This document shows positions 14,417-59,376 of a stretch of DNA of 64,000 bases, piece by piece. The notes beneath the pieces were generated by a model. It searched no databases. It saw only the letters and a program-made list of their open reading frames with translations, and was not told the origin of the DNA. How positions within the stretch are numbered: position 1 is the stretch's first letter; the number at the start of each line of letters is the position of its first letter. The stretch covers positions 4,154,001-4,218,000 of the forward strand of contig NZ_JBANDL010000002.1 in assembly GCF_037027445.1 (NCBI RefSeq), written 5' to 3'. Both the position numbers and the translations under genes were made by a program. The stretch is from Lysobacter firmicutimachus (GTDB lineage Bacteria; Pseudomonadota; Gammaproteobacteria; Xanthomonadales; Xanthomonadaceae).

Positions 14417-15040
14417 ATGAACCATCGTCTGATCGGCGGCGCCCTCGCCGCAGCCCTCGCCTGCGCGGCCCAGCCGGCCCTGGCCCAGCAAGCCGGCAAC
14501 TTCACCGTCGGCATCGGCGTCCACCAGGTCAACCCGAAGTCCAACAACGGCACCGTCCTCAACGGTGCGGCCCAGTTGGAAATCGACGACAACGTCCAGC
14601 CGACCTTCACTTTCGAATACTTCATCCGCGAGAACCTCGGCATCGAGGTGCTGGCCGCAACGCCGTTCAAGCACGACATCGCGGTCAAGGGCGTGGGCAA
14701 GGTCGGCGAGACCAAGCACCTGCCGCCGACCTTCTCGCTGCAGTACCACTGGAACAGCCGCGGTACCGTCTCGCCCTTCGTCGGCGTCGGCATCAACTAC
14801 ACGACCTTCTTCAGCGAGAAGACCACCGGCGCGCTGGACGGGCTGGACCTGCGCCTGGAAGACTCGGTCGGCGTCGCCGCCCACGCCGGCATCGACTTCA
14901 TCCTCAGCGAGCGCAGCGCGATCCGCGTCGATGCGCGCTGGATGGACATCCGCAGCGACGTCGAGCTGGAAGGCGAGAAGATCGGCAAGGCCGACATCGA
15001 CCCGACCGTGTACGGCCTGGCCTACGTGATGAAGTTCTGA
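14417..15040 (+). CDS. OmpW-family outer membrane beta-barrel protein
   Basis: A 207-residue exported protein. Residues 1-24 are a signal peptide (LIGGALAAALACAAQPALAQQ). The mature part alternates polar and hydrophobic residues, as in an 8-strand barrel. It contains OmpW motifs: VGIGVHQVNPKSNNG, FTFEYFIRENLGIEVLAATPFKHDI, LPPTFSLQYHW, FVGVGINYTTFF and the C-terminal DPTVYGLAYVMKF with terminal Phe. AAGGA lies just before the ATG. OmpW proteins form narrow channels for small hydrophobic compounds and respond to stress in other species. The substrate here is unknown. It is divergent from gapA. Confidence 0.9.
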   Translation: MNHRLIGGALAAALACAAQPALAQQAGNFTVGIGVHQVNPKSNNGTVLNGAAQLEIDDNVQPTFTFEYFIRENLGIEVLAATPFKHDIAVKGVGKVGETKHLPPTFSLQYHWNSRGTVSPFVGVGINYTTFFSEKTTGALDGLDLRLEDSVGVAAHAGIDFILSERSAIRVDARWMDIRSDVELEGEKIGKADIDPTVYGLAYVMKF

Positions 15041-15177
15041 TCCGCGGCGGGCTTCGGCCCGTCGTTCCGGCCGCCGCCGCGCCCGCGGCGCGGCCGTCGC
15101 GCGGCGACCGCGAGCGACGCCGCGCACCGCCATGTTCGGACAGTCGCGGCCCGGCCGGCTCGGCTAAAGTGCGTCCG

Positions 15178-16059
15178 ATGAACGCATCCGGTCACCGCTC
15201 ACGTCCGTCTTCCCTGGCCGCGCGCGCGCTGCGCCCGCTGGCCTGCGCCGCGCTGTTGCTGACCGTGCCCGCGCAGGGCCTGGCCTGGGGTCCGCAAGGC
15301 CATCGCCTGGTCGCTGCCCTGGCCTGGGACGGCATGACCCCGCAGGCCCGCGCCGAGGCGCTGCAGTTGCTCGCCGGCGAAGCCGACCCGAGCCTGCCCG
15401 GCATCGCCAACTGGGCCGACGAACTGCGGGCCAACGACCCCAAGCTCGGCAAGCTCAGCGCCAAGTGGCATTACGTCAACCTGGCCGAACGCACGGCCGG
15501 CGACGATTGCGGCTACGAGCCGGCCCGGCATTGCCCCAACGGCGACTGCGCGATCGAGGCGATCCGCACTCAGACCGCGATCCTCGCCGACCCCGGCCGC
15601 AGCCGCGCAGAACGCCGGCAGGCGCTGAAGTTCGTGGTCCACCTGGTCGGCGACGTGCACCAGCCGCTGCATGCCGGCTATGCCGACGACAAGGGCGGCA
15701 ACGATTTCCAGATCCATATCGACGGCGAGCCCGAGCCCGCCGACGGCTACGGCACCAACCTGCATTCGCTGTGGGACAGCCGCATGTTGACGATGGCCCG
15801 GCTCGACGACGCGGCTTATCTGGCCAAGTTGCGGCGCAGCCCGGTGCCGGCGGCGAAGGCGACCGGCGTGCCGCCGGCGGCTGCGGACTGGGCCCGGCAA
15901 TCGTGCCGGATCGCCGAGCGACCGGGCCTGTACCCGCCCAGCCATACCCTCGCCCCGGCCTATGTCGCGACCTGGCGGCCGGTCGCCGAGCAGCAGCTGC
16001 GGCTCGGCGGCGCGCGCCTGGCCGCGGTGCTCAATGCCGCGCTCGCGCCCAAGCGCTGA
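15178..16059 (+). CDS. S1/P1-type zinc-dependent nuclease
   Basis: A secreted single-strand-type nuclease of the S1/P1 family, 293 residues from ATG 15178. The signal peptide ends at about residue 36, so the mature protein begins WGPQGHRL; the N-terminal Trp is itself a zinc ligand in this family. Further zinc-site motifs are NWADE, KWHYVNL, FVVHLVGDVHQPLHAG, GGNDFQIH and NLHSLWD. All three zinc sites appear intact, so it is probably active on DNA/RNA in the periplasm or outside the cell. It stands alone between ompW and a metallo-hydrolase gene. Confidence 0.95.
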   Translation: MNASGHRSRPSSLAARALRPLACAALLLTVPAQGLAWGPQGHRLVAALAWDGMTPQARAEALQLLAGEADPSLPGIANWADELRANDPKLGKLSAKWHYVNLAERTAGDDCGYEPARHCPNGDCAIEAIRTQTAILADPGRSRAERRQALKFVVHLVGDVHQPLHAGYADDKGGNDFQIHIDGEPEPADGYGTNLHSLWDSRMLTMARLDDAAYLAKLRRSPVPAAKATGVPPAAADWARQSCRIAERPGLYPPSHTLAPAYVATWRPVAEQQLRLGGARLAAVLNAALAPKR

Positions 16060-16125
16060 ACCAGGGCCGCGGCGCCCTGCGGGCGCCGTATCCTTCGCGG
16101 TAGCCCCTCGTCGCAGGAGACCGGC

Positions 16126-16995
16126 ATGACGCCGCAGGTTCTGCCCTTCCACCATCGAGACACCGGCACCTGGTCCTACCTGGTCGCCGACGCCGATAGC
16201 GGCGCGGCGGCGATCGTCGACCCGGTGCTGGACTACCAGGCGGCATCCGCGCGCACCGCGCTCGATTCCGCGCAACGCTTGCTCGATGCGGCCGCGCAGC
16301 GCGGTTGGCGGATCGAGTGGCTGCTGGAAACCCACGCCCACGCCGACCACCTCAGCGCTGCGCACGCGCTGCGCGAGCGCCTGCGCACCGCCGGCGGCGC
16401 GCCGCAGTTGGCGATCGGCCGCGGCATCGAGCAGGTGCGGCGCCACTTCGCGCCGCTGTTCGGCCTGCCGGCGCACGACCCGGCGCCGGCCTTCGACCGC
16501 CTGTTCGACGACGACGAACGCTTCCGCATCGGCGGCCTGCCGGCGCAGGCGATTCCGGTGCCCGGCCACACCCGCGACAGTCTGGCCTATCTGATCGGCG
16601 ATGCCTTGTTCGTGGGCGACTCGCTGTTCCTGCCCGACAGCGGCACCGCGCGCTGCGATTTCCCCGGCGGCGACGCGGCCCAGTTGTACCGCTCGATCCA
16701 ACGCCTGTACGCCCTGCCCGACGCCACCCGCGTGTTCGTCTGCCACGACTACGGCCAGCCCGACCGCGAACCGGCCTGCGAAACCACCATCGGCGAACAG
16801 AAGCGCAGCAACGCGCATGTGCGCGCCGATACCGGCGAGGCCGAGTTCGTGGCCCTGCGCCAGGCGCGCGACGCGACCCTGGCGGTGCCGGCGCTGATCC
16901 TGCCGGCGCTGCAGGTCAACCTGCGCGGCGGCGCCCTGCCCGAGCCGGACGCCGACGGCCAGCGCTATCTGAAACTGCCGCTCGACCGCCTCTGA
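16126..16995 (+). CDS. Metallo-beta-lactamase-fold hydrolase (persulfide dioxygenase/glyoxalase II-like)
   Basis: A 289-residue cytoplasmic protein with the metal-binding [11 protein letters not shown] motif, [25 protein letters not shown] (His and bridging Asp) and a late HDYGQPDRE (final His). The layout, with ETHAHADH and VCHDYG but without a lactamase substrate loop, matches the ETHE1/BlhA-like branch. Those members oxidise glutathione persulfide or hydrolyse thioesters. The GERKRSNAHV-type segment ([11 protein letters not shown]) near residue 224 is also typical of that branch. No rhodanese or sulfur gene is adjacent, so the exact reaction is not settled. GGAG lies a short way upstream of ATG 16126. 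Confidence 0.85.
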
Positions 16996-17176
16996 CGCGA
17001 TCGCCCATCGGCGCGGAGGACGCTCTCCGGCGGCCGATCGCGCCGGCCGGATCGCGTCCGGCGCGGTGGGTGCGCCAGGCCGAATCGATCCGGACCATCG
17101 ACGCGCCCTGAGCGCAGGCACGGCGGCGGCGCTTCGCGCTACTCTCGCCCTACCCCACACGCCGAGGCTTCGCGCC

Positions 17177-49616: not shown

Positions 49617-50372
49617 TTACAAGGCCCCGCCCCGGCGCCCGGGCGAGAGCGCCGTCGCGCACGGCGGCGACGCCCGTCCGGCAACCGGCACCGGCGAAAC
49701 GCCGCCGCGCCAGCCTGCCGACGCGGTCGCGGCGCCGGGCAGGCGGGCGAGGATGTCGCTCATTTCCCAGGCCGCTCCTTCCTGGAACCAGAACTGGTCC
49801 ACCGCGCGCGGCCACTGCCAGGGATCGTCGGCGGGCGGGAAGAAAGCCGCCAGGGTGACGGTTTCCGCGCTGGCCAGGCGCACGACCAGATCCAGGCCGT
49901 CGCGCTCGAGCTGCACCTGGTCCGGATGAACGCCGGGCTTCAGCACCAGGATGGTGAGGAACTGGCCCTCGACGTCGCTCTGGTGGATGCGGTCGTGGCC
50001 GTCGCCCAGGCCGAACACGTAGGCGTCGTTGCCCAGCTCGCCGTGCAAGGCGTCGTCGCCGCTGCCGCCGGCGAGGATGTCGTCGCCGTCGCCGGCGTAC
50101 AGCGTGTCGTTGCCGCCCTCGCCCAGCAGCAGGTCGTTGCCGTCTAGGCCGTACAGCGTATCGTCGCCGGCGCCGCCGGTCAGGGTGTCGTCGCCGGTAG
50201 TGCCGGTCAGCACCTGTCCCGACAACTGCACGCGCCACAAGCGGCCGGCCGGGTAACGCAGCGCATCGCGCGTCGCCCGGCCCCATTCCATATCGCCGAC
50301 CTGGCGGACTTCGCCGGCCACCGCCGGCAGCGAAGCGAATTCGTGCTGCGGCACATCGAACAAAGCGGGCAT
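49617..50372 (-). CDS. Small RTX (haemolysin-type calcium-binding repeat) protein
   Basis: 251 residues from ATG 50372. No N-terminal signal. Residues 56-117 hold about seven GGxGxDxLx-type nonapeptide repeats (GTTGDDTLTGGAGDDTLYG, GEGGNDTLYAGDGDDIL), ending in the GNDAYVFGLGDGHD strand that starts a haemolysin-related C-terminal domain (to about 190). An Ala/Arg-rich tail of about 40 residues follows. Such proteins usually leave by a type I secretion system using a C-terminal signal; no such transporter is nearby. There is no catalytic domain: it looks like a repeat cassette alone. It is downstream of recG but separated by 130 bases. Confidence 0.85.
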   Translation of the reverse strand: MPALFDVPQHEFASLPAVAGEVRQVGDMEWGRATRDALRYPAGRLWRVQLSGQVLTGTTGDDTLTGGAGDDTLYGLDGNDLLLGEGGNDTLYAGDGDDILAGGSGDDALHGELGNDAYVFGLGDGHDRIHQSDVEGQFLTILVLKPGVHPDQVQLERDGLDLVVRLASAETVTLAAFFPPADDPWQWPRAVDQFWFQEGAAWEMSDILARLPGAATASAGWRGGVSPVPVAGRASPPCATALSPGRRGGAL

Positions 50373-50504
50373 GGGACGCTCCTGTCGTGAATGCGCGGGA
50401 CTCCCTCCGCGCTCGGTGCGGGCCGTGCGGCGCACGCTCGCGCGATCATTGCAGCAGAGCCGTGTCGCACAGGCGCAGACGCAGGCGAAGATCGCCTTGG
50501 ATGT

Positions 50505-52622
50505 TCAGGCCGAGGCGTAACGCGCCGCGCCGCCGACCCAGCGCGCGACGATGCGCTCGGCCTGTTCCGGCGATTGCGCGAGCAGCTTCTCGCCGAGCTC
50601 CTGCACCAGCGGCAGCAGGTCGGCGTCGCGGGCCAGGTCGGCGACGCGGAAACCGGCCAGGCCGGTCTGGCGGGTGCCGAGCAGTTCGCCGGGGCCGCGC
50701 AACTCCAGATCCTTTTCGGCGATGACGAAACCGTCGTGGGTCTGGCGCATGGTCTCCAGGCGTTGCCGCGCCAAGCCCGACAGCGGCGAGCGATACAGCA
50801 GCACGCAGGTCGAGGCGGCGCTGCCACGGCCGACCCGGCCACGCAGCTGATGCAACTGGGCCAGGCCCAGGCGCTCGGCGTTCTCGACGATCATCAGCGA
50901 AGCGTTGGGCACGTCGACGCCGACTTCGATCACCGTGGTCGCGACCAGCAGATCCAGCGCGCCGTCCTTGAACGCCTGCATCACCGCCTGCTTTTCCTTG
51001 GGCTTCATGCGCCCGTGCACCAGCCCCACGCGCAGCGGCGCGAGCTGGCGCGACAGTTCTTCGAAGGTGGATTGCGCGGCCTGCGCCACCACCTCGTCGG
51101 ACTCGTCGATCAAGGTGCAGACCCAATAGGCCTGGCGGCCTTCGGCGCAGGCGTTGCGGATGCGCTGGACCAGCTCGGGCCGGCGCTCTTCGCTCAGCGC
51201 CACGGTCTGCACCGGCGTGCGGCCGGGCGGCAGTTCGTCGATCGCCGACACGTCCAGGTCGGCGTAGGCGGTCATCGCCAGGGTGCGCGGGATGGGCGTG
51301 GCGGTCATCACCAGCTGATGCGGCACGATCGCGTCGTCGCCGACGCTGCCGCCGGCGCCCTTGTCGCGCAGCGCCAGGCGTTGGTGCACGCCGAAACGGT
51401 GCTGTTCGTCGACGATGGCCAGGGCCAGATCCTGGAAGGCCACGCCCTCCTGCATCAGCGCATGGGTGCCGACCACCACCTGGGCCTCGCCGGCCGCGAC
51501 CTGCGCCAGCACGTTCTTGCGCGCGCGACCGGTGACCTTGCCGGCCAGCCAGGCCACGCGCACGCCCAGCGGTTCCAGCCAACGGCGCAGATTATTGAGG
51601 TGCTGCTCGGCCAGCAGCTCGGTCGGCGCCATCAGCGCGGCCTGGCGGCCGTGCTGCACCGCCAGCATCGCCGCCAGCGCGGCGACCACGGTCTTGCCGC
51701 TGCCGACGTCGCCCTGCACCAGCCGCAGCATCGGCGAAGGCTTGGCCAGGTCGGCGCGGATTTCGTCGAACACCCGCCGCTGCGCCGCGGTCAGCTTGAA
51801 CGGCAGCGATTTGCGCAGGCGCTCGGCCAGCGGCAGTTGCTTCAGCGGCCGCGCGCGGTGCGCCTGCTGGCTGATGCGCTGGCGGCGCAGGCTCAGGTGA
51901 TGGGCCAGCAGCTCTTCCAGCGCCAGCCGGCGTTGCGCCGGATGCCGGCCTTCGATCAGCGCGGCCACATCGGCATCGACCGGCGGCCGGTGCACGGTCA
52001 GCAGCGCTTCGCGCAGGGTCGGCAGTTTCAGTCGCCGACGCAGCTCGCCAGGCAGCAGCTCCAGCGCGGCGTCGTCGGGCAGGCGGTCGAGGGCGAAGCC
52101 GATCAGCTTGCGCAGGGTGGCCGGGCCGATGCCTTCGATGGCCGGATACACCGGGTCCAGCGACTGCCCGAGTTCGACCTCGGCCGTGTCGTCGAGAATG
52201 CGATAGCTCGGATGGACGATCTCCAGCCCGTGCTGGCCGGGCTTGGGCGTGCCGTACAGCCGCACCCGCGCGCCGACCCGGAACTGAGCGACCTGGGCGG
52301 CGCGGAAATGGAAGAAGCGCAACACCACCGTGCCGTGCGAATCGTCGCCGACCGCGACCCGCAGCATCGGTCGGTAGCGGAAGCCGCGCTCGACCGCCTC
52401 CACCCGTCCTTCGACCTGCGCCGCGATCCCCGGCTGCAGGCGCCGGATCGGGGTGAGTTGGGTGCGGTCTTCGTACTGGCGCGGCAGTTGCAGCCAGAAA
52501 TCCTGCAGGGTCAGCAGCCCCCGCGCCGCCAGTTTTTCGGCCACGGCCGGGCCGACCCCGGGCATGCGCGGCAGCGGTTGCGTGTGGAGATCGACGGCGG
52601 GACCGTCCTTACGGCTCTGCAT
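50505..52622 (-). CDS. recG: ATP-dependent DNA helicase RecG
   Basis: 705 residues; remodels stalled replication forks and Holliday junctions. Wedge/OB domain about 55-165 (RRLQPGIAAQVEGRVEAVE). Walker A is GDVGSGKTVVAALAAMLAV, the DEAD-type box is DEQHRFGV, and helicase motif III is MTATPIPRTLA. The C-terminal helicase half has GRMKPKEKQAVMQAF, TTVIEVGVDVPNASLM and QLRGRVGRG. Start and length match the family. It is part of the conserved gmk-rpoZ-spoT-recG neighbourhood, though here separated from it by a 6-kb module. Confidence 0.97.
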   Translation of the reverse strand: MQSRKDGPAVDLHTQPLPRMPGVGPAVAEKLAARGLLTLQDFWLQLPRQYEDRTQLTPIRRLQPGIAAQVEGRVEAVERGFRYRPMLRVAVGDDSHGTVVLRFFHFRAAQVAQFRVGARVRLYGTPKPGQHGLEIVHPSYRILDDTAEVELGQSLDPVYPAIEGIGPATLRKLIGFALDRLPDDAALELLPGELRRRLKLPTLREALLTVHRPPVDADVAALIEGRHPAQRRLALEELLAHHLSLRRQRISQQAHRARPLKQLPLAERLRKSLPFKLTAAQRRVFDEIRADLAKPSPMLRLVQGDVGSGKTVVAALAAMLAVQHGRQAALMAPTELLAEQHLNNLRRWLEPLGVRVAWLAGKVTGRARKNVLAQVAAGEAQVVVGTHALMQEGVAFQDLALAIVDEQHRFGVHQRLALRDKGAGGSVGDDAIVPHQLVMTATPIPRTLAMTAYADLDVSAIDELPPGRTPVQTVALSEERRPELVQRIRNACAEGRQAYWVCTLIDESDEVVAQAAQSTFEELSRQLAPLRVGLVHGRMKPKEKQAVMQAFKDGALDLLVATTVIEVGVDVPNASLMIVENAERLGLAQLHQLRGRVGRGSAASTCVLLYRSPLSGLARQRLETMRQTHDGFVIAEKDLELRGPGELLGTRQTGLAGFRVADLARDADLLPLVQELGEKLLAQSPEQAERIVARWVGGAARYASA

Positions 52623-52779
52623 GGCGTAAGGATAGGGCCGGAACTGCGGGTCGGGAAAGCGCGCGGCGCGACGCCGTCGACCGTCGACGAGGGCGCGACG
52701 GACGACGCGACCGGCGCGTTCGCTGGCGCCGCGGCGGGGCGAGCGGGCGTTCGCCGCGCCCGCCCGCCGGTCGAACGAG

Positions 52780-55194
52780 TCAGTACCGGGCGCTGAACTC
52801 CAGCCCGAACGTGCGCGGCTCGCTGACGCGGGCGCCGACGGTGCCGAGCACGGTCTTGCCGTAGGTGCCCAGCGCGTTGACGTACTGGTGGTCGAACAGA
52901 TTGTTCGCGTAGGCGGCCAAGCCCCAGCGGCCCTGCGGCGAGGTCCAGGCCAGGCGCAGGTCGGTGCGGTTCTGCGCTTCGCCCAGGTCCAGCGCCGGGC
53001 TCACCCCGCAGCGGTTCTGCGAGCGCGACTCGTCGCTGCAGCGGACCTTGCCGCGGTAAGCGTGGCGCAGCGAGGCGCGCAGGTCGCCGCGACCGCCCAG
53101 ATCCCAGCGGTAGTGCGCGCCGCCGGCGAACGACCAGTACGGCAGGCCGGTCGGGTCGCCGCTGGCGTCGATGCCGTCGGCGGTGACGTAGTTCTTGTAG
53201 GTGGAATCGATGAAGCCGGCGTTGAAGTCCAGGCCGAAGGCGTCGCTGACCTGCCAGCGCAGGTCGAAGTCCAGGCCATAGGCTTCCAGGTCGGAGGTAT
53301 CGATCACGAAACGCGGGATGTCGGTGCTGTTGTCCAGCCGCACCGCCTGGCGGTTGTCGTAGACGTAGTAGTAGACCGAGGCGTTGAGCTGCAGGCGCTG
53401 GTCCGGGAAGGCCTTCTTGATCCCGGTCTCGAAGTTCCAGACGTCCTCGTTCTCGAAGCTGCTGCCGATCTGCAGCGAGTTGAAGCCGCCGGCCTTGTAG
53501 CCCTTGGCCAGCGAGGCGAAGACCATGGTGTCGTCGTCGAAATGGTAGTCGACGACGAAGCGCGGGCTGAAATCGGTCCAACTGTCGGAAGTTCGCCGCA
53601 GGACGCCCTTGTTCATCAGCGCAGGCGGGTCGATGAAGGCGACGTCGAAGACGAAGAACTCGCGCGGGATCCCGGCCAGATCGAAGAAGCCCAGCGCGTC
53701 GAGCTGGTCCAGCGCAGCGTCCAGTTCCGGCGCCGAACGCGGCGTGTTGAGCCAGCTGAACTTCTTCTCGTCGCGGGTGTAGCGCAGGCCCACGGTCAGA
53801 TTGAGCTTGTCGGTGGCGTGCCAGATCACGTCGCCGAACACCGCGTAGGCGCGGGTGTCCAGGGTGTTGTTGAACTTCTCGTTCCAACGGTGGCCGAGCA
53901 GGCTGATCGGAATGCCGAGCGCGCCGAGCTGCTGGTCGACGTAGCCGAACAGGTAGCCGGTCGGGGTCGGCGCCAGGCCGAGGTTGTGGACGATGGTGTC
54001 GACCGAGTCGGTCATCGCGTTGACTTCGCTGGTCTGCCTGGCGCGCTCGTCGAAATAGCTGGCGCCGGCGACCCAGTCGATCTTGTCGGTGCTGCCGGCG
54101 AACTTGAACTCCTGGTAGAAGCTGCGGTTGCTCTCGGTGTTGGTCGAGTCGACATAGAGATAGCGGCGGTTGGTACCGTCTTCTTCGACCCGGTTGAGCG
54201 AGTCGTAATCGCGCCACGAGGTGGTCGAGGTGAAGCCGCCCCAGTCGGTGCCGTGATCGACGATCAGGGTGACGCCGTCGAAGCGCCGCGATTCCTCGTT
54301 GCCCTCGGCGTCGCTGAAGGTCGGCACCTTGCGCGGATCGAGATAGGCCGACTCGTCGACCGGCAGTGCCGGCAGGCCCGGCGCCGGCGGCAGGGCGACG
54401 ATGCCGGTCGTGGCCTGCCCGAGCTGATCCAGACTCTCATGATCCCAGCTCAGCAGCACCGAGGTGCGCTCGCCGAGCCGGGTCTTGAACGCCGCGCGCG
54501 TGGCCCAGTTGTTTTCCGGATTGAGATCGCGCCCGGTCTGCGCATCCTGAATCCAGCCGTCGGCGTGATTGATCAAGGCATTGAAGCGGAACGCCGAGTT
54601 CTCGCTGACCGGCAGGTTGAGCATGCCGTCGACGTACTGCTTGCCGTGGTTGCCGACGCGCAGCTTGGCCGCCACTTCGGTCGCCGCGGCGCTGGGCTTG
54701 CGGGTCACGATCGAGATCGCGCCGGCGGCGGTATTGCGGCCGAACAAGGTGCCCTGCGGCCCTTTCAGCACTTCGATCCGCTCCACGTCGGTGAACGGCA
54801 GCAGCACGCCGCCGCCGCGGCCGGCATAGACGCCGTCGACGTAGACGCCGACCGCCGGATCGGTGCCGATGCCGAAGTCGTCGGTGCTGATGCCGCGCAG
54901 TTGGAACCCGGGCTGGGTCGGCTGCTGGCTGTCGACCACCAGGCCGGGCACGAAGCTGTCCAGGTCGCCCAGGTCCTGCGCGGCGACCTCGTCGATCAGC
55001 TGGTCGGTGACCACCTGCAACGCGATCGGCACGTCCTGCAGCTCCTGCTCGCGGCTCTGCGCGGTGACGGTGATCTTGTCCAACTCCTTGGGCTGATCCG
55101 GCGTTTGCGCCGCAGCGGGCAGGAAGGCGCCGCCGCACAACGCGGCGATGGCGGTGCCGGTCGCGACGACCAGGCGGTGTTTGCGCAACGACAT
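52780..55194 (-). CDS. TonB-dependent outer-membrane receptor
   Basis: 804 residues. Signal peptide 1-29 (VVATGTAIAALCGGAFLPAAAQ), TonB-box-like LDKITVTAQSREQ (38-50), plug domain with LRGISTDDFGIGTDPAVGVYVDGVYAGR and VERIEVLKGPQGTLFGRNTAAGAI, then a 22-strand barrel ending GLEFSARY with the terminal aromatic residue. The plug and the SREQELQDVPIALQVV start are typical of the large clade of Proteobacterial receptors for plant- or lipid-derived substrates, not of a specific siderophore receptor. It is the first listed gene of the module, downstream of the cytochrome and beta-helix genes on the same strand. Ligand unknown. Confidence 0.93.
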   Translation of the reverse strand: MSLRKHRLVVATGTAIAALCGGAFLPAAAQTPDQPKELDKITVTAQSREQELQDVPIALQVVTDQLIDEVAAQDLGDLDSFVPGLVVDSQQPTQPGFQLRGISTDDFGIGTDPAVGVYVDGVYAGRGGGVLLPFTDVERIEVLKGPQGTLFGRNTAAGAISIVTRKPSAAATEVAAKLRVGNHGKQYVDGMLNLPVSENSAFRFNALINHADGWIQDAQTGRDLNPENNWATRAAFKTRLGERTSVLLSWDHESLDQLGQATTGIVALPPAPGLPALPVDESAYLDPRKVPTFSDAEGNEESRRFDGVTLIVDHGTDWGGFTSTTSWRDYDSLNRVEEDGTNRRYLYVDSTNTESNRSFYQEFKFAGSTDKIDWVAGASYFDERARQTSEVNAMTDSVDTIVHNLGLAPTPTGYLFGYVDQQLGALGIPISLLGHRWNEKFNNTLDTRAYAVFGDVIWHATDKLNLTVGLRYTRDEKKFSWLNTPRSAPELDAALDQLDALGFFDLAGIPREFFVFDVAFIDPPALMNKGVLRRTSDSWTDFSPRFVVDYHFDDDTMVFASLAKGYKAGGFNSLQIGSSFENEDVWNFETGIKKAFPDQRLQLNASVYYYVYDNRQAVRLDNSTDIPRFVIDTSDLEAYGLDFDLRWQVSDAFGLDFNAGFIDSTYKNYVTADGIDASGDPTGLPYWSFAGGAHYRWDLGGRGDLRASLRHAYRGKVRCSDESRSQNRCGVSPALDLGEAQNRTDLRLAWTSPQGRWGLAAYANNLFDHQYVNALGTYGKTVLGTVGARVSEPRTFGLEFSARY

Positions 55195-55264
55195 CGAAAG
55201 CTCCCCTCTCGTTCGTTCCAGACCCGAACGCGCGTATTCGGCGCGTTCCCCAACCGCCGGGCGC

Positions 55265-56404
55265 CTAGCCGCAGCTCCCCTGCTGCGCGGCGATCCAATC
55301 GCGGATCAGTTGTACGCCCTCGGCATGCACCACGCTGCGACCGAGTTCCGGCATCATCACCGCCGGATCGTCGCTGAGCATGCGATAGACCAAAATCGAT
55401 TCGTCCGGCTTGCCCGGCACCAGGCCGTAGCGGCGGTCGCCGGTGCCCTTGCCCGCTGCGATCGGCAGCTTGCAGCGCCCCAGCCGCAGCGGCTCGCGAG
55501 TGGCCGCGTCCAGCCACAGGCCGGAGGTGTTGCCGGGCCCGCTCGGGCTGTGGCAGTGGCCGCAATTGACGTCCAGGTACGCACGCGCCTTGGCATCCAG
55601 CGGCGCTCCCGGGTCGCGCCAGTTGGCGGCGCGCGGCGCGGCCTGCGGCGCCGGCGCACCGCGCAGGTAGCCGGCGCGGGTCCAGCGCGCGATCTGATTG
55701 GCCAGGCCGTCGTCGTAGGCGAAATCGCGATTGAGTTGGCGCGCCTTCGGTCCGATCGGCTGCAGCGCCTTGCTCTTCATGTCGGTGCCGTGGCAACCGG
55801 CGCACTGGTTCTGGTCCGGCACCTGATATTGCGCCGGTTCGCTGCGTCCGTCGGCGCCGGTCAGGCGCAACGGCACCAACTCGCCGGCGCGCATCAACCG
55901 CGCCCGAGTCTGCTGTTCGTTCCAGACATAGGGCAGCGCGATCCAACCCTCGCGACGCCGCACCAGCAACCGGGTTTCGACCAGCCGCACCTTGCTCAGC
56001 TCCAGCCCTCCGCCGCGCAGGTCCGGGCCGTCGTCGGCGCTGCGCAACACCGTATCGCCCTCGCCGCGCGGGTAGTAGAAGGTCTTACTGAGAATGGTGC
56101 CGACCGGGAAGTCGAACGCGCGCTCGGCGTCGTAGGCCGCGGCCTGCCCCTGTGGCATCCACACCGTGCGCAGCTTGTGCGCGTAGTCGGAGAACAGCGG
56201 CGTGTTGAGGTCGTAGGGCATCACGCCCCGGTTCAGGCGCAGGCGCCCGTCGGCGACGCGCAGCAGGTTCCATTCGGCCAGATCCGCCGGCTGGCCTTCG
56301 GCGAAGAAGCGCACCGGCGGCGGCGCGGCTTCCCGCGCGCACGCCGCCAGGCACAGCGACAGCAACAACCCGATCCAACCGCGGCCCATCGCGTTCGTTC
56401 GCAT
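55265..56404 (-). CDS. Diheme c-type cytochrome lipoprotein (SO2930/HNE_0200 family)
   Basis: 379 residues. Lipobox LSLCLAAC with Cys22. Two haem-binding motifs, CAGCH (201-205) and CGHCH (281-285), with a late Met-rich segment (VMMPELG) that may give an axial ligand. The N-terminal domain (RFFAEGQPADLAEWNLL, LNTPLFSDYAHKLRTVWMP, GTILSKTFYYP) is characteristic of the TIGR03806 (HNE_0200) family, which as I recall is known for pairing with the beta-helix family next door. The function of the pair is undefined. The start overlaps nothing; it lies three bases after the beta-helix gene. Confidence 0.88.
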   Translation of the reverse strand: MRTNAMGRGWIGLLLSLCLAACAREAAPPPVRFFAEGQPADLAEWNLLRVADGRLRLNRGVMPYDLNTPLFSDYAHKLRTVWMPQGQAAAYDAERAFDFPVGTILSKTFYYPRGEGDTVLRSADDGPDLRGGGLELSKVRLVETRLLVRRREGWIALPYVWNEQQTRARLMRAGELVPLRLTGADGRSEPAQYQVPDQNQCAGCHGTDMKSKALQPIGPKARQLNRDFAYDDGLANQIARWTRAGYLRGAPAPQAAPRAANWRDPGAPLDAKARAYLDVNCGHCHSPSGPGNTSGLWLDAATREPLRLGRCKLPIAAGKGTGDRRYGLVPGKPDESILVYRMLSDDPAVMMPELGRSVVHAEGVQLIRDWIAAQQGSCG

Positions 56405-56407
56405 CGA

Positions 56408-57640
<1,233 letters not shown>

Positions 57641-57813
57641 GGGTCTCTCCGGATTTGGCTTGCGGCGCGCGGATGCGACGCCGGTCCGCATCGCTCCGTG
57701 CCCCCGCACGGCTAAGCCAGGAGTCTCCGCCGGGGCCGTGAGCGCGCGTGAGGGCGGATGCGGCACACTAGGGGGGCAATCGCGGTCAACCGTGCGGCCA
57801 GGAGCGTGGGGAG

Positions 57814-58878
57814 ATGCGCCAGCCATCCGATCGGGACCCAACCCAGGACGACGTCGCGATGATGTCGCCGAACCTGCTGTGGGGTCTGCTGGAAACCGCG
57901 GACCGGCTCGGCGCGCCCAGCGACGACTGGTTCGCCGGCACCGGGCTCAGCCGCGCCCAGGTCAGCGACCCGGGCGTGCGCCTGCCCGACCGCCCCACCG
58001 CGGTGGTGATCGAACGCGCGCTGCGGGTGCTGCCGGCGAGCATCGGCCTGGACATCGGCCACGCCCAGCACATCGGCAACTTCGGCCTGCTCGGCCTGGC
58101 CATGACCACCGCGCCGACCTTCGGCGACGCACTGCAGATCGGCCTGCGCTTCACCCCGGTGGTCGGCAGCCTGATGCGCTTCGTCGAAAGCGCGTCCGAG
58201 CCCGGCACCCTGGCCTTGGCCGGCCGGATGACCCTGACCTACCCGGCGATCCACCGTTTCGTCTGCGAAGAGTTCTTCAGCAGTTGCCTGGCGCTGGCGC
58301 GCGGCCTGGTCGGCGAGCGGTTGCGGCCGCTGCGGGTCGAGTTCAGCTACCCGGCCCCGCCTTACGAGTCGCGCTATCGCGACGTGTTCGATTGCCCGCT
58401 CGCCTTCGCCCAGCCGCAAGACCGGCTGGTGCTGGATGCGCAGTGGCTGGCCGCGCCGTTGCCGACCCACAACCCGATCGCCTCGCGCCAGGTGCTGGCG
58501 CTGTGCGAGGCGCAGATGCCGCAAGGCCCGCTGCCCGGCGAAGTCACCGCCGCGGTGGAACGCCTGTTGCGCGCGCAACTGGCCCAGGACCCCAAGCTGG
58601 CCGGTATCGCCGCGCAGTTGCACGTCAGCGAGCGCACCCTGCGCCGCCAGCTCACCGGCGAGGGCACCAGCTTCCACGAGATCCACGACCGCCTGCGCAT
58701 CGACCGGGCCTATGCCCTGCTACGCGAACGCCAGCCGACCATCGCCGCGGTCGGCGCCGCGGTCGGCTACAAGGATCCGCGCGATTTCCGCCGCGCTTTC
58801 AAGCGCCTGACCGGCGAAACGCCGCGCGCCTTGCGCGAGCGGTTTTTGTCTGGGCGGGGATTGGGAATTGGGGATTAG
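57814..58878 (+). CDS. AraC-family transcriptional regulator with N-terminal arabinose-binding-type domain (OruR-like)
   Basis: 354 residues. The N-terminal ligand domain (LLWGLLETADRLGAPSDDWFAGTGLSRAQV...IGNFGLLGLAMTTAPTFGDALQ) is of the PF12625 type. The C-terminal AraC DNA-binding domain (about 245-342) has two helix-turn-helix units: LAGIAAQLHVSERTLRRQLTGEGTSF and IAAVGAAVGYKDPRDFRRAFKRLTGETPRALR. Divergent from the beta-helix/cytochrome/receptor genes with a 173-base gap, so it is the likely regulator of that set. The last residues (GRGLGIGD) and the TAG stop are read from a GGGATT repeat block. Confidence 0.93.
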   Translation: MRQPSDRDPTQDDVAMMSPNLLWGLLETADRLGAPSDDWFAGTGLSRAQVSDPGVRLPDRPTAVVIERALRVLPASIGLDIGHAQHIGNFGLLGLAMTTAPTFGDALQIGLRFTPVVGSLMRFVESASEPGTLALAGRMTLTYPAIHRFVCEEFFSSCLALARGLVGERLRPLRVEFSYPAPPYESRYRDVFDCPLAFAQPQDRLVLDAQWLAAPLPTHNPIASRQVLALCEAQMPQGPLPGEVTAAVERLLRAQLAQDPKLAGIAAQLHVSERTLRRQLTGEGTSFHEIHDRLRIDRAYALLRERQPTIAAVGAAVGYKDPRDFRRAFKRLTGETPRALRERFLSGRGLGIGD

Positions 58879-58926
58879 GGATTCGCGGAGCGGGGATTCG
58901 GGATTCGGGATTCGGGATTCGGGATT
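58855..58926 (+). repeat. GGGATTC heptamer block at the end of the AraC gene
   Basis: Runs of GGGATTG/GGAATTG/GGGATTA/GGGATTC units, including five consecutive GGGATTC copies near 58893-58926. The block supplies the regulator's final codons and stop. Confidence 0.9.
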
Positions 58927-58992
58927 GCCGGAGCGTAAAGCGCGACGGCCGCGTGGGCGGCCGTCGTTTCGAGCGGTGTTCGACGCTGCGGC

Positions 58993-59376
58993 TCAGCGCA
59001 GGACCAGGATCGCGTCGACTTCGAACCCGACGCCGCGCGGCAGGGCCGAGACTTCGACCGTCGAGCGCGCCGGATACGGCGGGTTGAAGTACTCGCCCAT
59101 CACCGAATTGACCTTGCCGAACGCGCCCAGGTCGGTGAGGTAGAGGCCGAGCCGGACCACGTCGGCCAGCGAGCCGCCGGCGGCTTCGCACACCGCCTTG
59201 AGGTTCTGGAACGCGCGATGCGCCTGCGCCTCGATATCGCCCTCGATGACCAGGCCGCTGGCCGGGTCGAGCGGAATCTGGCCGGACAGATACACCGTGT
59301 CGCCGACGCGCACGGCCTGGGAGTACGGGCCGATCGCGGCCGGGGCTTGGTCGGTGTGGATGATTTCTCGGGACAT
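58993..59376 (-). CDS. ridA: RidA family enamine/imine deaminase
   Basis: 127 residues. Family motifs: [31 protein letters not shown], the catalytic-site Arg in [22 protein letters not shown], and [17 protein letters not shown]. RidA hydrolyses reactive 2-aminoacrylate-type enamines from PLP enzymes. It is last in the yicC-gmk-rpoZ-spoT-ridA series. Its leader is made of a dispersed repeat and has no visible Shine-Dalgarno sequence (AATCCCGGCCCCAAACC before ATG). Confidence 0.96.

Follow-up and report, generated by a model that had tools for sequence, protein, structure and literature searches.

A stretch of 64,000 nucleotides of the Lysobacter firmicutimachus genome, here called the window, contains four neighbouring genes that raise a simple question: what is achieved by encoding side by side a TonB-dependent receptor (TBDT), a diheme c-type lipoprotein (CYT), a right-handed beta-helix lipoprotein (HELIX) and a divergent AraC-family regulator (AraC)? 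The first-pass annotation of this DNA had built the locus around a recurrent gene pair, given as TIGR03805/TIGR03806 and described as lacking an assigned function. The family numbers prove correct, with HELIX scoring 425.6 bits against TIGR03805 (beta_helix_1; cut-off 141.5) and CYT 390.9 bits against TIGR03806 (SO2930 family diheme cytochrome; curated cut-off 313.3), and no functional report on the pair was found in the literature searched, subscription papers lying outside its coverage. The four genes are one cassette, inherited all-or-none in Xanthomonadaceae, and on balance we slightly favour its role as an inducible system in which a compound is taken up and then oxidised by a HELIX-CYT complex.

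A cassette of four genes and its operator-like site

Among 149 evenly drawn Xanthomonadaceae genomes, which are not independent of one another, the TIGR03806 profile found some match in 39 and exceeded its curated cut-off in 33; a TBDT match at E<=1e-100 occurred in exactly these 33 genomes, an AraC orthologue at E<=1e-40 in 33/33, and the cassette genes were adjacent and identically arranged in every carrier. Because this co-occurrence in 33/149 genomes is all-or-none, the grouping is not attributable to chance. The first-pass annotation had proposed a neighbourhood survey, and would have abandoned its module had receptor and regulator failed to accompany the pair or had a function already been shown; in this sample all four genes are conserved together in all carriers, and the literature search gave no such function. 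TIGR03806 is present in 19/19 sampled genomes of the genus, and a Lysobacter antibioticus contig (L002) encodes proteins 99-100% identical to those of the window. Two further family genomes carry regulators only 32-33% identical to the window's AraC. In one genome (G872:C1:343517-345914) the cassette receptor is split over two reading frames, with CYT and the regulator whole.

Genomes without the cassette show the same site unoccupied. recG was located in 14 of them and 13 were examined (G341, with recG at a contig end, was excluded); in 13/13, ridA and recG are neighbours with 42-141 bp between aligned ends, and the junction gave no match to any of the four cassette genes. The only match near such a junction is a weak receptor hit more than 5 kb off, in L144. 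A different contig carries a CYT relative of low score in three of the 13 (G796, G803, G808). Three Tahibacter loci and L037 possess all four genes between flanks that lack ridA and recG.

Within the window, the 3-base gap between the beta-helix and cytochrome genes noted earlier agrees with the ORF (open reading frame) coordinates, the HELIX stop and CYT start being 3 nt apart. The receptor placed beyond the pair is an ORF with Plug and barrel domains 70 nt past CYT, and the divergent ligand-binding regulator carries PF12625 and HTH_18 on the plus strand, opposite HELIX. The mechanical ORF of HELIX extends to 57841, and its length of 410 aa is counted from the likely ATG.

The regulator's place in the module, also proposed at first pass, is borne out by its divergent orientation and by a conserved operator-like site beside it. 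The 33 AraC-HELIX intergenic sequences, which are not dereplicated and include the window and the near-identical L002, hold a strongly conserved block with a 39-bp direct-repeat site; the composite site, written as a regular expression, matches 32/33, of which 30 have a CCG-CCG spacing of 22 bp and the other two spacings of 21 and 23 bp. Exact matches to its 19-bp core occur once per genome, in front of HELIX, in 11/11 genomes of the genus. One-mismatch sites number 2-7 per genome (44 in total versus 20 in a reversed control, over the 11 genomes), and some recur from genome to genome. A consensus scan of 52500-59000 gave no sigma-70-like promoter. Judged by its conservation, the putative site has the appearance expected of an AraC operator with a single main target, and it offers a direct route to the inducer.

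HELIX, CYT and a predicted P460-like heme domain

The pairing of HELIX with CYT, which the first-pass annotation had called recurrent, extends well beyond the family. HELIX was found by tblastn near CYT in 72 of the best 80 of 200 public-genome CYT loci; the eight loci without it comprise seven from Bacteroidota and one (L055) cut at a contig end. A single ORF with both domains occurs in 6 of 37 pair loci among 55 loci fetched (L082, L083, L112, L116, L117, L128), and in two genomes inferred to be likely Shewanella the fused HELIX-CYT ORF is followed by a second CYT. Such fusions support the view that HELIX and CYT are partners. Of 10 CYT-domain relatives scanned, 8 have a GSDH propeller in the same ORF (L118-L122, L124, L125 and L127; not L132 or L134) and make up a group of multi-domain redox proteins. 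The CYT heme module is thus repeatedly coupled to a substrate-handling domain, and HELIX may take that place in the cassette. Two of these relatives have architectures of their own: the L119 ORF adds ThuA and five F5/8-type-C (discoidin) stretches to the GSDH propeller and CYT domain, and L134 (484-4269) has, on a single contig, three CYT-like genes in tandem with low TIGR03806 scores.

The GSDH fusions lend themselves to another interpretation, in which CYT only accepts electrons, HELIX serves as a dock, and the true dehydrogenase comes from outside the cassette, as an alcohol or aldehyde dehydrogenase or as an unlinked periplasmic enzyme. The GSDH propeller would then supply the chemistry in the relatives, and genes for pyrroloquinoline quinone (PQQ)-dependent alcohol dehydrogenase (PQQ-ADH), GMC or aldehyde dehydrogenase (ALDH) lie near some pairs; however, none of the four genes common to the 33 cassettes encodes a dehydrogenase, and a second exact operator core was not found in the 11 genomes, although near-matches occur. 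We regard this interpretation as rather unlikely. In contrast to the GSDH-cytochrome fusions, the cassette itself has no GSDH domain. A PQQ-dependent reading was rejected because pqqC occurs in only 4/33 carriers; HELIX and CYT also lack PF07995 and any PQQ propeller.

The first-pass description of CYT as a diheme cytochrome holds for its two CxxCH motifs, C201/C204/H205 (heme 1) and C281/C284/H285 (heme 2), but not for a simple heme carrier, since the first heme domain is predicted to be P460/c'-beta-like. In the AlphaFold2 (AF2) model (predicted local distance difference test, pLDDT, 91.5), residues ~31-250 adopt the beta-sheet fold of cytochrome P460/c'-beta with CxxCH at the domain end, and a second domain carries heme 2 (281-285). 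At the position of the P460 cross-linking lysine stands K107 in 42/42 CYT rows, within P-x-G-x4-K in 39/42, and an arginine stands at -28 from it (R79) in 35/42; both were placed by motif spacing against McP460 numbering (PMC6427953), not by residue-level structural alignment. Fold, terminal CxxCH, lysine motif and arginine constitute the likeness to P460/c'-beta; unlike those proteins, CYT continues into another c-type heme domain, is anchored by lipid (lipobox-like C22, kept in 63% of dereplicated homologues) and has a beta-helix partner. The words 'diheme', 'fusion' and 'domain' are absent from the text of the 2025 P460 superfamily review. R79 and K107 of the P460-like pocket, both invariant, would not obviously be needed by a mere electron carrier, a point against the electron-acceptor interpretation. 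Weighing against the P460-like assignment, CYT stays below the PF16694 gathering score of 27 (13.8 bits; 14.7 for the domain alone). The best score among the relatives scanned is 25.7 bits, in P0203, and profile and sequence searches returned no P460 chain in the PDB.

A P460-like pocket also invites a nitrogen-oxide function, with CYT as a hydroxylamine or nitric oxide oxidase or scavenger and the cassette guarding against, or using, N-hydroxy compounds, including hydroxamates imported by TBDT. The lysine and arginine pattern is kept, and the part of the source available assigns the fold hydroxylamine oxidation in P460 and, as a proposal, gas binding in c'-beta (PMC11928373). Against this, no nitrogen-oxide genes were found among the neighbours selected for Pfam scanning, a selection rather than every neighbour; a small diffusible molecule has no obvious need of a receptor and a beta-helix; and the distal carboxylate required for activity (Glu96/Asp102 in P460) was not identified in CYT, where E143 is invariant at a spacing from the lysine that varies among homologues. 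This function appears improbable.

The beta-helix lipoprotein of the first-pass annotation is upheld in family and lipobox (C21, kept in 65% of dereplicated homologues) and corrected in type: the predicted fold is the beta-helix of AlgE A-modules, with many invariant residues. AlgE presumably carries a YG-x-D-P-H motif at its catalytic site; when the HELIX motif YG[LIF]YPV is matched by spacing to the AlgE triad, the positions read Tyr, Tyr, Val in 29/29 HELIX rows. Since the catalytic residues of AlgE are Tyr149, Asp152 and His154 in the portion of the source available (PMC7385640), HELIX apparently lacks two of them, the Asp and His positions reading Tyr and Val by motif spacing, and epimerisation is unlikely.

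A NosD-like copper role was considered as well. HELIX passes Pfam NosD (PF05048; 43.0 bits, gathering 23.6), though it scores higher on PF13229 Beta_helix (59.3) and falls far short of the NosD copper family TIGR04247 (NosD_copper_fam; 35.6 bits, cut-off 300). Copper binding generally requires Cys/His/Met-type residues, and none of these is well conserved in HELIX except the lipobox and two C-terminal Cys; given this scarcity and the low TIGR04247 score, the copper role is disfavoured.

Receptor, substrate and relatives beyond the family

Beyond Xanthomonadaceae, TIGR03806 was detected in 39/369 genomes of a class sample (7 over cut-off) and in 46/398 of a phylum sample (37 over cut-off), and CYT has at least 7,870 relatives at E<=0.001 among 8,000 candidates scored. 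The four-gene module of the first-pass annotation stands for the 33 Xanthomonadaceae, but regulator and receptor do not accompany the pair universally: in other lineages FadL, DUF1302 or no recognised outer-membrane protein adjoins it. FadL directly precedes the HELIX-CYT fusion of L112, and DUF1302 follows CYT in three Endozoicomonas/Parendozoicomonas loci (called by Pfam for L047 and by similarity for the other two), in one of them with DUF1329. In the Parendozoicomonas locus L047, where DUF1302 and DUF1329 accompany the pair, a nearby protein of 837 aa (14587-17097) has a ricin-B-type lectin domain and matches M19 dipeptidase weakly. Close AraC relatives are confined to Xanthomonadales among the loci examined; in two loci that are likely from Shewanella, a regulator with PF12625 lies downstream of the pair in the opposite direction and is only distantly related (22-24% identity).

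The receptor itself was followed in 16 genomes outside the family, 12 chosen with a receptor seemingly near the pair and 4 without. The genome's best TBDT match adjoins the pair in 10/16, spread over several distant lineages (two Tahibacter, Roseateles, two Brevundimonas, L033, L056, L085, L100, L102); it lies away from the pair in G340, G923, G186, G162 and G415, and G300 has none. Of four plasmid-borne relatives, the one from Novosphingobium reaches 47% and the others 27-28%. On the plasmid of Novosphingobium sp. EMRT-2 (L150, 4789-8581) the receptor next to the pair is annotated as two pieces separated by an IS5-family transposase, and both are similar to the window's TBDT (42% and 34%).

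TBDT (Pfam Plug and TonB_dep_Rec_b-barrel) could also belong to iron or metal metabolism, importing a ferric siderophore or heme whose metal the diheme protein would reduce or release at the envelope, or CYT could take part in extracellular electron transfer. The best NCBIfam match of TBDT is TonB-siderophore, at 144.5 bits; in a single locus, L086, a FecCD permease is encoded two genes further along; and for Shewanella SO2931 the accessible parts of the literature describe an outer-membrane cytochrome connected with the reduction of metals or disulfides. The receptor score nevertheless falls short of that family's cut-off (223.5), the regulator is an AraC protein with PF12625, the cassette has no inner-membrane siderophore transporter, and FadL or DUF1302 takes the adjoining position elsewhere, so that a metal function seems highly improbable. 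Against the PqqU receptor NF041535, TBDT reached 21.3 bits of a required 1200.

Neighbouring genes give suggestive clues to the substrate. Alcohol- or aldehyde-oxidising genes (PQQ-ADH, GMC, ALDH) lie near the pair in several lineages, and on this ground the substrate is most likely a hydroxylated organic compound (alcohol, aldehyde or sugar-like). ALDH rows from the same loci number 10/486 among near genes versus 3/452 among far ones, seven of the near ones being from Brevundimonas. Other lineages have beta-lactamase/esterase-family or alpha/beta-hydrolase genes nearby, and numerous further neighbours in the scan are housekeeping genes with no relation to the pair. A sugar-like compound would suit the HELIX fold and the GSDH relatives, a hydrophobic one FadL and DUF1302.

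Proposed mechanism and known systems

The favoured scheme of uptake and oxidation starts from a co-inherited unit with a conserved operator-like site of its own, from natural fusions of HELIX with CYT, and from predicted folds with conserved residues; on these we infer ligand sensing, import of the same compound, a heme-lysine bond, catalysis at heme 1, binding in the groove and a route for electrons. AraC would sense the compound or its product and, through one operator, activate helix-cyt and probably tbdt; TBDT would carry the compound across the outer membrane; and HELIX, a lipid-anchored AlgE-type beta-helix, would bind it in a groove formed by invariant residues. In a complex with HELIX like that of the natural fusions, CYT would oxidise the compound at a five-coordinate P460-like heme 1, with His205 proximal, Lys107 predicted to be cross-linked to the porphyrin and Arg79 capping, and electrons would leave via heme 2 (His285/Met351) to the respiratory chain. 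For a common family without reported function, the P460-like domain, lysine motif and fusions provide a first testable mechanism, and a true lysine cross-link would place P460-type chemistry well beyond the nitrogen-cycle bacteria where it was first found. More tentatively, and with less than even confidence, HELIX-CYT may represent a widespread, unrecognised P460-type oxidoreductase class of ordinary heterotrophs that oxidises imported organic molecules, setting a lysine-cross-linked heme and an electron-exit heme on an AlgE-type beta-helix; if so, cross-linked-heme catalysis would extend beyond hydroxylamine.

The closest named counterparts are Shewanella SO2930/SO2931, listed as outer-membrane/extracellular c-type cytochromes in the part of PMC4837345 available. 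Accessible portions of the literature mention SO2931 in metal, electrode or disulfide contexts, and no specific function was found in them. A text found for TIGR03805 or beta-helix-repeat proteins deals with an exopolysaccharide gene cluster. The window's proteins are well over both curated cut-offs of this pair, and to these uncharacterised families the locus adds a receptor, a regulator and an operator-like site. A partly similar system is the SphR-SphBCD system for sphingosine in Pseudomonas, where, in the text available (PMC11893366), SphR controls a periplasmic oxidase, the TAT (twin-arginine translocation)-secreted, flavin mononucleotide (FMN)-linked oxidoreductase SphC, together with the cytochrome c5-like lipoprotein SphB. 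The two systems would share a regulator over an oxidase and a lipoprotein cytochrome c, but by that paper's descriptions the enzymes differ in kind from those of the cassette, and 'beta-helix' is absent from the same text.

Table 1. Features of the cassette and its flanks (positions within the window)
Feature	Coordinates	Strand	Basis or remark
TBDT, TonB-dependent receptor of 804 aa; the cassette's last gene	52780-55194	-	ORF list; Plug and barrel
CYT, diheme c-type lipoprotein, 379 aa	55265-56404	-	TIGR03806; AF2 model
HELIX, right-handed beta-helix lipoprotein, 410 aa from likely ATG	56408-57640	-	TIGR03805; AlgE-like fold
Putative AraC operator, direct repeat TTGnCCG...CCCC / AGTRTGCCGn5GCCCT, period ~22 bp	57751-57789	-	intergenic conservation
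AraC, divergent AraC-family regulator, 354 aa	57814-58878	+	PF12625 ligand-binding domain and HTH_18
recG	50505-52622		flank; with ridA encloses all four cassette genes
ridA	58993-59376		flank; with recG encloses all four cassette genes

Directly downstream of recG and on the same strand lies an ORF (49617-50435, minus strand) with what we take to be RTX-like GGxGxDxL repeats.

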